A DNA stretch of 64,000 nucleotides from NCBI RefSeq assembly GCF_020731415.2, contig NZ_CP088276.1, positions 248,001 to 312,000 of the forward strand, read 5' to 3'. Shown in pieces: positions 25,199 to 49,790 of the stretch (position 1 is its first letter; every line of letters starts with the position of its first letter). The DNA is from Phyllobacterium sp. T1293 (GTDB lineage Bacteria; Pseudomonadota; Alphaproteobacteria; Rhizobiales; Rhizobiaceae). The notes below the pieces were generated by a model. That model did no database searches, was not told the origin of the DNA, and saw nothing but the letters and a program-made list of their open reading frames with translations. The translations under genes were made by a program, and so were the position numbers.

Positions 25199-25214
25199 TC
25201 CGGCTTGCGTGAAC
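25199..25214 (-). promoter_or_regulatory. Candidate FtcR box upstream of motA
   Basis: Read on the minus strand: GTTCA, CGCAAG, CCGGA, ending 44 bp before the motA TTG. The first 11 bases are identical to the flgE site. A TAGTGC hexamer follows after 5 nt (25193-25188). This is the weakest second half-site of the five. Confidence 0.45.
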
Positions 25215-25261
25215 CTTGCAGGCGGTGACAGGTTCATGATTGATCAGAAACAGGCGGACAG

Positions 25262-25277
25262 CTTCAGGCAAGCTTGA
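25262..25277 (+). promoter_or_regulatory. Candidate FtcR box upstream of the DUF1217-flgF operon
   Basis: CTTCA, GGCAAG, CTTGA, ending 42 bp before the DUF1217 start. It keeps the 11-bp half-site periodicity of the other sites but has no clear -10 at the shared distance. Confidence 0.45.
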
Positions 25278-25318
25278 TTTGGCACAGATAAGGGAGAAGC
25301 TTTGGGAGTGCCGGTGCA

Positions 25319-26098
25319 ATGATCAATACCATGACCAGCTACAAATTGATCTCGTCAGATTTGACGCGTTCGCTGACGCGCGTGGCCAAGGAGCCGGCGG
25401 TTCAGCGTGATACGGATTATTATCTGAAGAATATCGGCAAGGTGAAAACCATCGACGATTTCATGAAGGATGATCGGCTGTATAAATATGCCATGAAAGC
25501 CATGGGCCTTGAGGACATGAACTTCGCCAAGGCTTTTATTCGCAAAGTTCTGACTGAAGGTACCGGCAAGGACAGTTTTGCCAGCAAGCTGACTGACAAA
25601 CGCTATCTCGAGTTTGCGACGACCTTTAATTTCGCCAAGCTTGGCGACAAGGCAACGAGCCAACCGGCTGTGCTCAAGCCGGTGACAGACAAATATGCGC
25701 GTCAGACTTTGGAGAAGGAAGCGGGCCAGGACAATGAGGGCGTGCGGCTTGCACTGTATTTTGCGCGGAAAGCCCCTGGCATCACCAATGCCTATGAAAT
25801 CCTTGGCGATAAGGCGCTGCTGAAGGTTTTCCAGACAACGTTCTCCATACCGGCGCAAACATCCAATATGGACATCGACCGGCAGGCCAAGATGGTTGAG
25901 GACAAGCTTGATCTGAAATCGCTCAAAGACCCGGCGAAACTTGAGAAATTCCTCACCCGTTTTACCGCCATGTACGAAATGAACAATCCTTCGACGGCAA
26001 CCAGTATCCCGTCCATGCTTATTGGAGGTGATATGACGGTCGGCATCTCGCAGAGCATTCTGACAACCCTGCAATCGTTCAAGCTTGGCGGCCGCTGA
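25319..26098 (+). CDS. DUF1217 domain flagellar protein
   Basis: A 259-residue protein that opens the plus-strand operon and ends on the flgF start (1-bp overlap). It has no signal peptide or membrane helix and is largely helical: TDYYLKNIGKVKTIDDFMKDDRLYKYAMKAMGL, then a middle repeat-like unit and a C-terminal NPSTATSIPSMLIGG. The family is found next to flgF in alphaproteobacterial flagellar loci. Its role is unknown; a structural or export-related axial protein is plausible. Confidence 0.8.
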   Translation: MINTMTSYKLISSDLTRSLTRVAKEPAVQRDTDYYLKNIGKVKTIDDFMKDDRLYKYAMKAMGLEDMNFAKAFIRKVLTEGTGKDSFASKLTDKRYLEFATTFNFAKLGDKATSQPAVLKPVTDKYARQTLEKEAGQDNEGVRLALYFARKAPGITNAYEILGDKALLKVFQTTFSIPAQTSNMDIDRQAKMVEDKLDLKSLKDPAKLEKFLTRFTAMYEMNNPSTATSIPSMLIGGDMTVGISQSILTTLQSFKLGGR

Positions 26099-26820
26099 TG
26101 GAAAACTCGATCTATGTCGGCCTGTCATCGCAGATATCGCTGGAACGTCGCCTTGATGCGCTGGCCCATAATGTCGCCAATATGTCGACACCGGGTTTTC
26201 GCGCCACGGGCATGAAATTTGAAACCATGGTCTCGAAGGCCGCCGAGGATTCAAGCTTCGTTTCAGCTGGCCAGAGTTACATCAAGACTGAAGCTGGCCC
26301 GATAACCCAGACCGGCAATCCGCTTGATATGGCGGCAAAGGGCGATGTCTGGTTTTCCATGCAAACGCCAGCCGGACAGGTCTATACCCGCGACGGGCGC
26401 ATGCAGATGTCAACAACAGGCGAGCTTCTGTCCGTCAAGGGTTATCCCATTCTTGATGCGGGTGGGCAGCCGCTGGTGATCGACCCGAATGGCGGTCCGC
26501 CGGAGATTGCCGCCGATGGCGCAGTTTATCAGAACAAGAGGCAGCTCGGTTCGATCGGCCTGTTCACCATCAACCCCAATGCCAAACTGACCTATTTTGA
26601 CAATTCCGCAGTTATTCCAAGTGTTGCAGCCCAGCCTGTTCTCGACAATCCCCATGCGGGTGTCATTCAGGGTGCCATTGAGGGGTCGAACGTCGATGCA
26701 ATTGGCGAAATGACCCGGCTGATGAGTGTTACCCGCGCCTTCGAGCGGGTGGATGCGTTGCTGCGTGGCAATGAGGGTACTTTCTCCGAAGCCATCAAGA
26801 CGCTCGGATCAAAGAGCTGA
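26098..26820 (+). CDS. flgF: Flagellar proximal/distal rod protein FlgF
   Basis: Rod protein of 240 residues with the N-terminal axial motif (LSSQISLERRLDALAHNVANMSTPGFR, including ANxxTxGF) and the C-terminal helix (GEMTRLMSVTRAFERVDALL). The central domain has the GNPLDMAAKGDVWFSM segment typical of FlgE/F/G proteins. It starts on the stop of the DUF1217 gene and is followed 22 bp later by fliI. Confidence 0.92.
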   Translation: MENSIYVGLSSQISLERRLDALAHNVANMSTPGFRATGMKFETMVSKAAEDSSFVSAGQSYIKTEAGPITQTGNPLDMAAKGDVWFSMQTPAGQVYTRDGRMQMSTTGELLSVKGYPILDAGGQPLVIDPNGGPPEIAADGAVYQNKRQLGSIGLFTINPNAKLTYFDNSAVIPSVAAQPVLDNPHAGVIQGAIEGSNVDAIGEMTRLMSVTRAFERVDALLRGNEGTFSEAIKTLGSKS

Positions 26821-26842
26821 TGCCTGAGCGGGCCGGATAGAC

Positions 26843-48868: not shown

Positions 48869-49135
48869 ATGAATGAGGCCGATGCACTCGACATCATCAA
48901 CCAGGCGATCTGGACGGTGATTGTCGCTTCCGGCCCAGCGGTCGGCGCTGCCATGCTGGCAGGCGTCTGTATCGCGCTGTTTCAGGCCCTGACGCAAATT
49001 CAGGAAGTAACACTGACCTTCGTGCCGAAGATCATTGTGATCCTCGCTGTGCTTGCACTGACGGCGCCTTTCGTCGGCTCGCAGATCAATACACTTACGC
49101 TGCTGACTTATTCACGCATTGAAAAGGGTTTTTGA
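48869..49135 (+). CDS. fliQ: Flagellar export gate protein FliQ
   Basis: An 88-residue gate component with two membrane helices (IWTVIVASGPAVGAAMLAGVCIALF and IIVILAVLALTAPFVGSQI). The start at 48869 gives MNEADALDIINQAIW, the normal N-terminus. A 677-bp non-coding gap follows, unusual within this otherwise compact cluster. Confidence 0.94.
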   Translation: MNEADALDIINQAIWTVIVASGPAVGAAMLAGVCIALFQALTQIQEVTLTFVPKIIVILAVLALTAPFVGSQINTLTLLTYSRIEKGF

Positions 49136-49161
49136 GCTTTCGCATTGCGGTAAAGGAATTA

Positions 49162-49191
49162 CCCCACTCTGCCCTGTCGGGCAGAGTGGGG
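49162..49191. terminator. Perfect 13-bp hairpin after fliQ
   Basis: CCCCACTCTGCCC, loop TGTC, GGGCAGAGTGGGG, starting 26 bp after the fliQ stop. No U-run follows, so it may be a weak terminator, an mRNA-stabilising hairpin or a short repeat unit. Confidence 0.55.
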
Positions 49192-49601
49192 TGAGCACGC
49201 GCCACCCAAACCACCATTCTCAAAAAAATCACCACCAACTTATCCACGTTTCTCCAACGTCGCTTATTCTGATGGTGTCCTTTCCGGCGGGAATGCTTCC
49301 GGAAACTATTCGAAGTCAGGAAAGGACCGGCGCTTCTGTTTGCGGGTGGTAGTCCCGCAGACCGGAGAGGTTCCGCTCTTATGCCGGTACTGAGCCTGAC
49401 AGCCAGGAAATCGGTGAAGAACGGGAACACAAATCGCCGGGGCGGGTGGTCCGAGGGATCGTAAACACCGCAACACCAACCAAAGACTTCAGCGCTCCCG
49501 ATGGACCGCCCGTCTTTCCCACTTTTTCAATGGCCAGACGCGAAAGCGGGTGTGGCAACGGGGAAGTACAATCTGGTTGGCTGCAAATCCATTGTTGCGC
49601 C

Positions 49602-49710
49602 CTTCGACAGGCTCAGGATGAGGGAGGGTGAGGATTGCAATGCACATCGACAATTCTGCAGAACTTGACTCCCTGCATCCACACTCTCCCTCATGGTGAG
49701 CTTGTCGAAC
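49602..49710. repeat. Imperfect palindromic intergenic repeat element
   Basis: Left arm 49602-49630 begins CTTCGACAGGCTCAGGATGA; right arm 49682-49710 is its inverted counterpart (reverse complement begins GTTCGACAAGCTCACCATGA). The arms match at about 25 of 29 positions and enclose about 50 bp. Sequences of this kind recur in alphaproteobacterial intergenic regions, so it is probably a dispersed REP/BIME-like or MITE-like element. Confidence 0.65.
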
Positions 49711-49763
49711 CACGAACCACGCAAATCCGGTTTTGCAAAGCACGGACAACATCCCCGCTTTGG

Positions 49764-49790
49764 CTTCGCGTAAGCTTCGCTCCCTATGCT
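49764..49790 (+). promoter_or_regulatory. Candidate FtcR box and promoter of the flhA operon
   Basis: CTTCG (49764-49768), CGTAAG, CTTCG (49775-49779), then 5 nt and TATGCT (49785-49790). It ends 34 bp before the flhA GTG. Around it the match to the fliF upstream region extends over about 28 bp. Confidence 0.55.

Follow-up and report, generated by a model that had tools for sequence, protein, structure and literature searches.

A tandem-repeat box at flagellar promoters of Phyllobacterium and its relatives, predicted operator of the orphan regulator FtcR

VisN is a class I regulator of rhizobia, and in the OmpR family the Pho box of PhoB consists of two 11-bp direct-repeat units that replace the -35 region. 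Rem of Sinorhizobium and Rhizobium and LafR of Bradyrhizobium are orphan regulators of class II flagellar genes and are of the same kind as FtcR (PMC8429497, PMC9812332). Rem activates class II genes directly and has already been termed aspartate-less (PMC9812332); LafR governs the lateral flagellum and not the polar one, and Azorhizobium and Bradyrhizobium are without visNR and have rem homologs (PMC8429497). FtcR of Brucella melitensis is reported to bind upstream of fliF (Leonard et al., cited in PMC9456535), its motif from chromatin immunoprecipitation sequencing (ChIP-seq) is TGTGGGCA, and it is also reported at its own promoter (PMC9456535). In the part of this literature covered here, which concerns FtcR, Rem and LafR binding and mapped promoters, no binding box was found for Rem or LafR and no description of the box reported below, which also goes unmentioned in the part of PMC9456535 that was covered. 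Here we analyse a 64,000-nt stretch of Phyllobacterium sp. T1293 (assembly GCF_020731415.2, contig NZ_CP088276.1, positions 248,001 to 312,000 of the forward strand), called the window and numbered from its first letter, in which seven flagellar operon starts carry a box of two tandem 11-bp units. This box is the predicted operator of FtcR, which is encoded in the same stretch, and we consider it very probable that FtcR/Rem (LafR or ActR in other genera) reads it.

A first-pass annotation had reported five sites of this kind as a candidate FtcR box, all ending 34-45 bp before a start codon and most followed after 5 nt by a -10-like hexamer. These five, before fliF, flhA, flgE, the DUF1217 operon and motA, are found at the coordinates and on the strands given for them. 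The distance from box end to start codon is 39 for fliF (ATG at 36216), 34 for flhA, 45 for flgE, 42 for DUF1217 and 44 for motA (TTG at 25155), all within the range claimed, and the hexamers 5 nt past the box are TATGGT at fliF, TATGCT at flhA, TAGTGC at motA and TTACGA at flgE. The DUF1217 box has CACAGA 5 nt downstream, without TA at the usual -10 place. As a list the five sites were incomplete. When we scanned the window with a 30-column matrix built from ten operon-by-clade profiles (fliF, flgE, flhA, motA and DUF1217, each in two clades), seven sites were obtained with scores from 32.8 to 16.5, the next best scoring 10.9; the two additions precede flgB and flgJ, neither of which was among the training genes. 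Column-shuffled matrices gave 0.14 matches of at least 16 per window, with a maximum of 2 in 300 trials. The seven boxes are:

36157..36186, + strand: box and start of the -10 hexamer before fliF; core CTTCGCGCAAGCTTCG at 36162-36177; -10 TATGGT at 36183-36188; score 32.8
49759..49788, + strand: box before flhA; core at 49764-49779; -10 TATGCT at 49785-49790; score 28.8
25190..25219, - strand: box before motA; core at 25214-25199; -10 TAGTGC at 25193-25188; score 27.4
25257..25286, + strand: box before the DUF1217-flgF-fliI operon; core at 25262-25277; score 26.5
43712..43741, + strand: box before flgE; core at 43717-43732; -10-like TTACGA at 43738-43743; score 24.7
28832..28861, + strand: box before flgB (ATG at 28901); -10 TAGATT at 28858-28863; score 24.3
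53071..53100, + strand: box before flgJ (ATG at 53135); -10 TAAGGT at 53097-53102; score 16.5

Beyond the window the regulon was covered by pattern searches of the genome, and thus by matches near those patterns. Among the loci so obtained, the best site beyond the flagellar cluster scored 16.0 and had no AAG core, and four more scored 13.0-13.7. Because its score of 16.5 lies close to 16.0, the flgJ box rests on conservation.

Conservation was followed in 33 named genomes, which belong either to Phyllobacterium or to the Brucella/Ochrobactrum/Falsochrobactrum group (hereafter the Brucella group), with flgF loci taken from 30 of them. For the core STTCRSRYAAG we allowed at most one mismatch within 160 nt before the gene, counted regions in which the gene start was located, and omitted 4 distant loci (L063, L064, L066 and L067) of 37; the Phyllobacterium counts in this test include the window genome. 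The core precedes fliF in 18/18 Phyllobacterium and 16/16 Brucella-group regions, flhA in 17/17 and 15/16, motA in 14/14 and 13/13, DUF1217 in 17/17 and 14/14, and flgE in 18/18 and 13/16. Within 500 nt, the flgE box is found in all relatives (17/17 Phyllobacterium, 16/16 Brucella group) and the flgJ box in 15/15 of each clade. At flgB, all 20 relatives examined (of 32 genomes) score at least 21.1. Some leaders of the Brucella group are longer, with the box intact 85-242 nt upstream (flgE in L048, L050-L054, L061 and L062; flgJ in L049, L050, L052-L054 and L062). That the box is real is, in our judgement, nearly certain.

The averaged profile of the box reads A-G-[CG]-TTC-[GA]-CGCAAG-C-T-T-C-G, followed by TA at offset 21-22, and resolves into two tandem 11-bp units, roughly nnnAGSTTCRC and GCAAGCTTCGn. 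The spacing of 11 bp proposed for the half-sites holds, as column similarity at lag 11 is 0.190 with a next best value of 0.044 among lags 3-18 (0/5000 column permutations); the description has to be amended in that the second half-site is the weaker of the two, and at several sites the second unit is weak. Within single sites of the window the units have 4 to 8 of their 11 positions in common. A palindrome was rejected, the best inverted repeats giving 0.159 (7 pairs around AAGCTT) and 0.118 (12 pairs), both below the 0.190 of the direct repeat. The distance to the promoter is also fixed: of 81 distinct sites outside the window's family that were picked on the box and not on the -10, 44% have TA at offset 21, and at most 7.4% have it at any of the other 19 offsets. 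No separate -35 element is visible in the averaged profile, and with the -10 at offset 21 a 17-bp spacer would put the -35 hexamer on AGSTTC in the first unit. This spacing and the lack of a distinct -35 in the profile fit an activator seated on the -35 region. With direct repeats about one helical turn apart and a fixed position relative to the promoter, the box has the form of an operator of the OmpR/PhoB type. Like the Pho box it is made of two 11-bp direct-repeat units at the -35 region, but its sequence differs and it reaches to 5 bp before the -10, whereas the Pho box ends farther upstream.

The regulator itself is annotated as follows:

42937..43647, + strand: ftcR, an orphan regulator of the OmpR type whose receiver is degenerate; start codon provisional

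FtcR matches the DNA-binding domain Trans_reg_C (PF00486) with 54.8 bits (cut-off 26.2), and its Response_reg score of 24.9 bits is under the cut-off of 30.2. The window protein is 99% identical to FtcR of Phyllobacterium sp. OV277, which marks the genome as Phyllobacterium and not as one of the Brucellaceae; its best solved relative is RegX3. Unlike regulators of the PhoB type, FtcR is without the usual phospho-acceptor: the Asp is replaced by Glu in the window, and 95 orthologs have Glu in 66, Gln in 18, Arg in 7 and Asp in 4 cases. The DNA-binding helix VVESHISKLRKKLR is found in 45 of the 95 orthologs and near variants in at least 41 more, and a helix this close to invariant is what box and regulator of equal age would lead one to expect. 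The B. melitensis protein is an ortholog by name and by relatives, and fliF is reported as its direct target (PMC9456535). A LuxR-type regulator with an autoinducer-binding domain is encoded at 19058-19861 (+ strand), near flhB, and may stand above ftcR.

In a sample of 249 genomes of the order, FtcR/Rem is present in 67 at a threshold of E 1e-45 or better; a class-wide sample of 190 genomes has FtcR in the window's genome only, with at least two others belonging to the same order. Among the matches listed, FlhA falls into two types, one of 58-100% identity in 62 genomes, all of which have FtcR, and the rest at 45-49%. This split is in line with the lateral and subpolar flagellar systems of PMC6406911. 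From the fliF, flgE and flhA sites we derived a degenerate 15-mer, with the reversed pattern as control. In the 5.07-Mb genome, searched as a circle, its three exact matches are its own source sites alone, and at most two mismatches yield 74 matches against 50 for the control. Across the order, exact matches occur in 14/67 genomes with FtcR and 3/182 without it (reversed control, 3/249).

With the matrix we scanned the surroundings of FtcR, up to 20 kb per stretch, in 60 of 66 genomes that have it, with a second stretch for 20 of these. As controls served 40 stretches with the other FlhA type, taken from 34 genomes without FtcR and from second clusters of 6 genomes with it; the cut-off was 13, and 60 shuffled matrices were run alongside. 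In the 51 FtcR-bearing genomes outside the window's family there were 137 matches in 43 genomes, one of them counted twice through overlapping stretches; shuffled matrices gave a mean of 8.1 matches in 7.3 genomes and a maximum of 29 matches and 24 genomes. The flagellar clusters of the 34 genomes without FtcR gave 3 matches and the 6 second clusters 1, which is near chance, as shuffled matrices gave 3.6 in the 40 stretches. Thirteen of the 14 sampled families with FtcR have at least one match (in f30 they are few and weak). All FtcR-bearing stretches together hold 167 matches, and 113 precede known genes, mainly flgE (21), motA (17), fliF (14), flgJ (13), flhA (12), flagellin (12), flgB (9) and DUF1217 (9). 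In a count by gene within 130 nt of the start, each site was taken once, since rod and hook proteins cross-match (flgG, flgC and flgF against flgE). In this count a box precedes motA in 17/17 and fliF in 16/21 cases, and gene kinds other than the seven operon heads are nearly boxless (motB 0/25, flgK 0/38, flaF 0/39, fliG 2/12, ftcR 1/60). The box thus precedes flagellar operons and is absent from clusters not run by FtcR, as befits an FtcR-type regulon. The original proposal of an FtcR box is supported by the tests set to refute it, as far as these went: strong matches are concentrated at flagellar operons, the site is retained upstream of orthologous genes, and clusters without FtcR go without the box. 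Some of the 54 remaining matches stand before cheY-like genes in seven stretches of other families (L178, L181, L186, L193, L201, L204 and L217; a receiver domain is present in the two proteins scanned) and before a chemoreceptor gene in L271, where the methyl-accepting chemotaxis protein domain was confirmed. The FtcR regulon may include chemotaxis there.

We infer that FtcR reads the box as a dimer and activates through the -35 region. An OmpR-type dimer would bind the two 11-bp units on one DNA face. With the upstream unit occupying the -35 position and a TA-type -10 at fixed distance, FtcR would bring RNA polymerase to promoters that lack a -35 themselves. It would in this way switch on the fliF, flgE, flhA, motA, DUF1217-flgF-fliI, flgB and flgJ operons, and neither flagellin nor ftcR itself.

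Several observations weigh against FtcR as the reader, or against the weaker sites. The only published FtcR motif found, TGTGGGCA from ChIP-seq (PMC9456535), differs from the box, and there is no box at the ftcR promoter, where that paper reports FtcR. The two units agree at only 4/11 positions at flgJ and 6/11 at flgE. Eight of the 51 FtcR-bearing genomes outside the family have no match in the 16 to 40 kb searched, 54 of the 167 matches are not tied to a known flagellar gene, and boxes within 130 nt of the start are patchy at flgB (8/11), flgE (21/36), DUF1217 (9/18), flgJ (11/28) and flhA (12/33). Since the sample does not allow FtcR to be told apart from the flagellar type, the box is linked no less to the system than to the protein. 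In the window, a 16-mer with at most three mismatches gave 6 matches, the motA site not among them, against 7.67 expected, and 77 of 100 shuffled windows equalled or exceeded this number. A looser skeleton did better there (8 matches against 2.37 expected, a number that 1 of 100 shuffles gets to); genome-wide its 9 matches are equalled by the 9 of the reversed control, though 4 of its own fall within the flagellar cluster, and a one-mismatch composite gave 33 against 49 for its control. With the three-mismatch search at chance level, the motA and DUF1217 sites needed other evidence. The window statistics are thus mixed, and what carries the two weak sites is comparison with the relatives, in which all five are conserved. 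Chance resemblance combined with shared descent of neighbouring sequence could draw on these three poor searches, but it leaves unexplained the seven operon starts, the sites outside the training set, the order-wide excess over shuffles and the absence in clusters without FtcR, and we regard it as exceedingly improbable.

A different protein, such as VisNR, CtrA, MucR or a VjbR-like LuxR regulator, might read the box, with FtcR acting elsewhere, for example at TGTGGGCA. We hold this to be unlikely, even though the inseparability of FtcR from its flagellar type and the differing ChIP-seq motif speak for it. VisNR was rejected as reader since VisN went unmatched at E 1e-20 in 53/61 FtcR-bearing genomes; the 8 matched genomes all belong to the window's family, the window genome itself is unmatched, and only 2 matches exceeded the curated cut-off, so that a diverged VisN could be missed. 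CtrA likewise belongs to the OmpR type and regulates flagellar genes in alphaproteobacteria, but its site, TTAA-N7-TTAA, is unlike the box in sequence and spacing. A direct repeat of 11 bp also suits an OmpR-type dimer better than the palindrome of LuxR-type proteins. As to TGTGGGCA, it is absent from the 300 nt before fliF, ftcR, flgE, flhA, flgJ and fliC in Phyllobacterium and the Brucella group (0/33 fliF and 0/32 ftcR upstream regions of relatives, in a sample that B. melitensis lies outside), which speaks against it as a flagellar operator, though the motif is rare throughout these loci, with 4 occurrences in 682 kb; the window has it at 7779, 9193 and 15699 and nowhere else. On this absence upstream in relatives we rejected it as the operator of these promoters. 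The fixed distance to the -10 would also suit a flagellar -35-type promoter element that a sigma factor recognises without the help of an activator. About 21 bp conserved in two units one helical turn apart is more than a -35 hexamer, however, and Rem orthologs activate these genes (PMC9812332), so we think such an element very improbable.

FtcR as reader of the box leaves the flagellin gene to be placed:

35140..36090, + strand: flagellin gene, boxless; flagellin models score below cut-offs

The first-pass annotation had assigned flagellin to a later class for want of the motif. This applies to Phyllobacterium and the Brucella group, where we found no matrix match of at least 6 upstream of the gene in the window and the box in 0/33 relatives. 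It does not extend to other genera, where flagellin is often boxed: in FtcR-linked clusters, 12 of 22 valid starts (one row at a distance of 17476 being left out) have a box 123-181 nt before the start. The long leader that this implies would be of a kind that FlbT could act on. In the window, the flagellin leader at 35050-35139 has conserved blocks around GGCAT-ATGCC and CCGGT/AATCCGGC that are common to the Brucella group; its fold is unremarkable (z -0.97), and no Rfam match was found in 16000-56000.

At flgB a second regulator may be involved. In 11 of 20 relatives a perfect TTAA-N7-TTAA starts where the -10 ends, and 2 more have it with one mismatch; the window (28858-28880) and its four closest relatives lack it. 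Random 55-nt stretches contain the pattern, with one mismatch allowed, in 0.5% of cases. In these genera the pattern is peculiar to flgB, accompanying 3 of 178 box sites of the FtcR and flgF loci; elsewhere in the order it is found at 0/9 flgB boxes and 4/12 flagellin boxes. It looks as if CtrA were laid over an FtcR promoter at flgB. CtrA of Sinorhizobium meliloti has flagellins and some chemoreceptors as direct targets, and its action on the flagellar apparatus is mostly indirect (PMC4433202), which leaves room for Rem at the box.

Most flagellar genes of the window belong to the seven boxed operons, whose extents we infer from gene order and strand:

20337..25155, - strand: motA operon (motA, fliM, fliN, fliG, flhB); motA by TIGR03818, the others by Pfam
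22499-22852, - strand: fliN, within the motA operon
25319..28219, + strand: DUF1217 (PF06748), flgF, fliI
28901..34971, + strand: flgB, flgC, fliE, flgG, flgA, flgI, flgH, fliL, fliP
36216..42213, + strand: fliF, motB, motC, fliK; matches to TIGR00206, MotB models and Flg_hook, with MotC models below cut-off
43777..49135, + strand: flgE, flgK, flgL, flaF, flbT, flgD, fliQ; by Pfam, with fliQ identified separately
49813..52673, + strand: flhA, fliR; matches to FHIPEP and Bac_export_1
53135..53707, + strand: flgJ; Rod-binding PF10135, with FlgJ models below cut-off

Between fliM and fliN in the motA operon lies a gene at 22876-23484 (- strand) that scores 188.8 bits, above the cut-off of 100, with the NCBIfam model 'BAB2_0123 family type IV secretion system effector'. 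It has no Pfam match, and the match to an effector family occurs here in a plant-associated genus.

The box adds a probable operator of the OmpR type to a regulator already known; it stands out by its deep conservation and by contradicting the printed motif. On balance we favour, with some reserve, a broader reading in which the box would have served one flagellar system as its common switch from a time before the families of the order diverged. FtcR would then work without a kinase, its receiver having mostly Glu as a phospho-mimic, or Gln, in place of Asp; flagellin would have moved in and out of the regulon with a long leader, CtrA would have been overlaid at flgB in some lineages, and the printed FtcR motif would be wrong or reflect another binding mode. 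In many plant symbionts and animal-associated relatives the name of flagellar master regulator is given to FtcR, Rem or LafR, yet the only printed motif found is missing from the flagellar promoters examined. With its fixed geometry, a defined box makes the direct regulon readable from sequence across the genomes of the order and tells footprinting and mutation experiments exactly where to aim. It also makes the boundary between class II and class III of flagellar assembly testable, including the entry of flagellin and CtrA.

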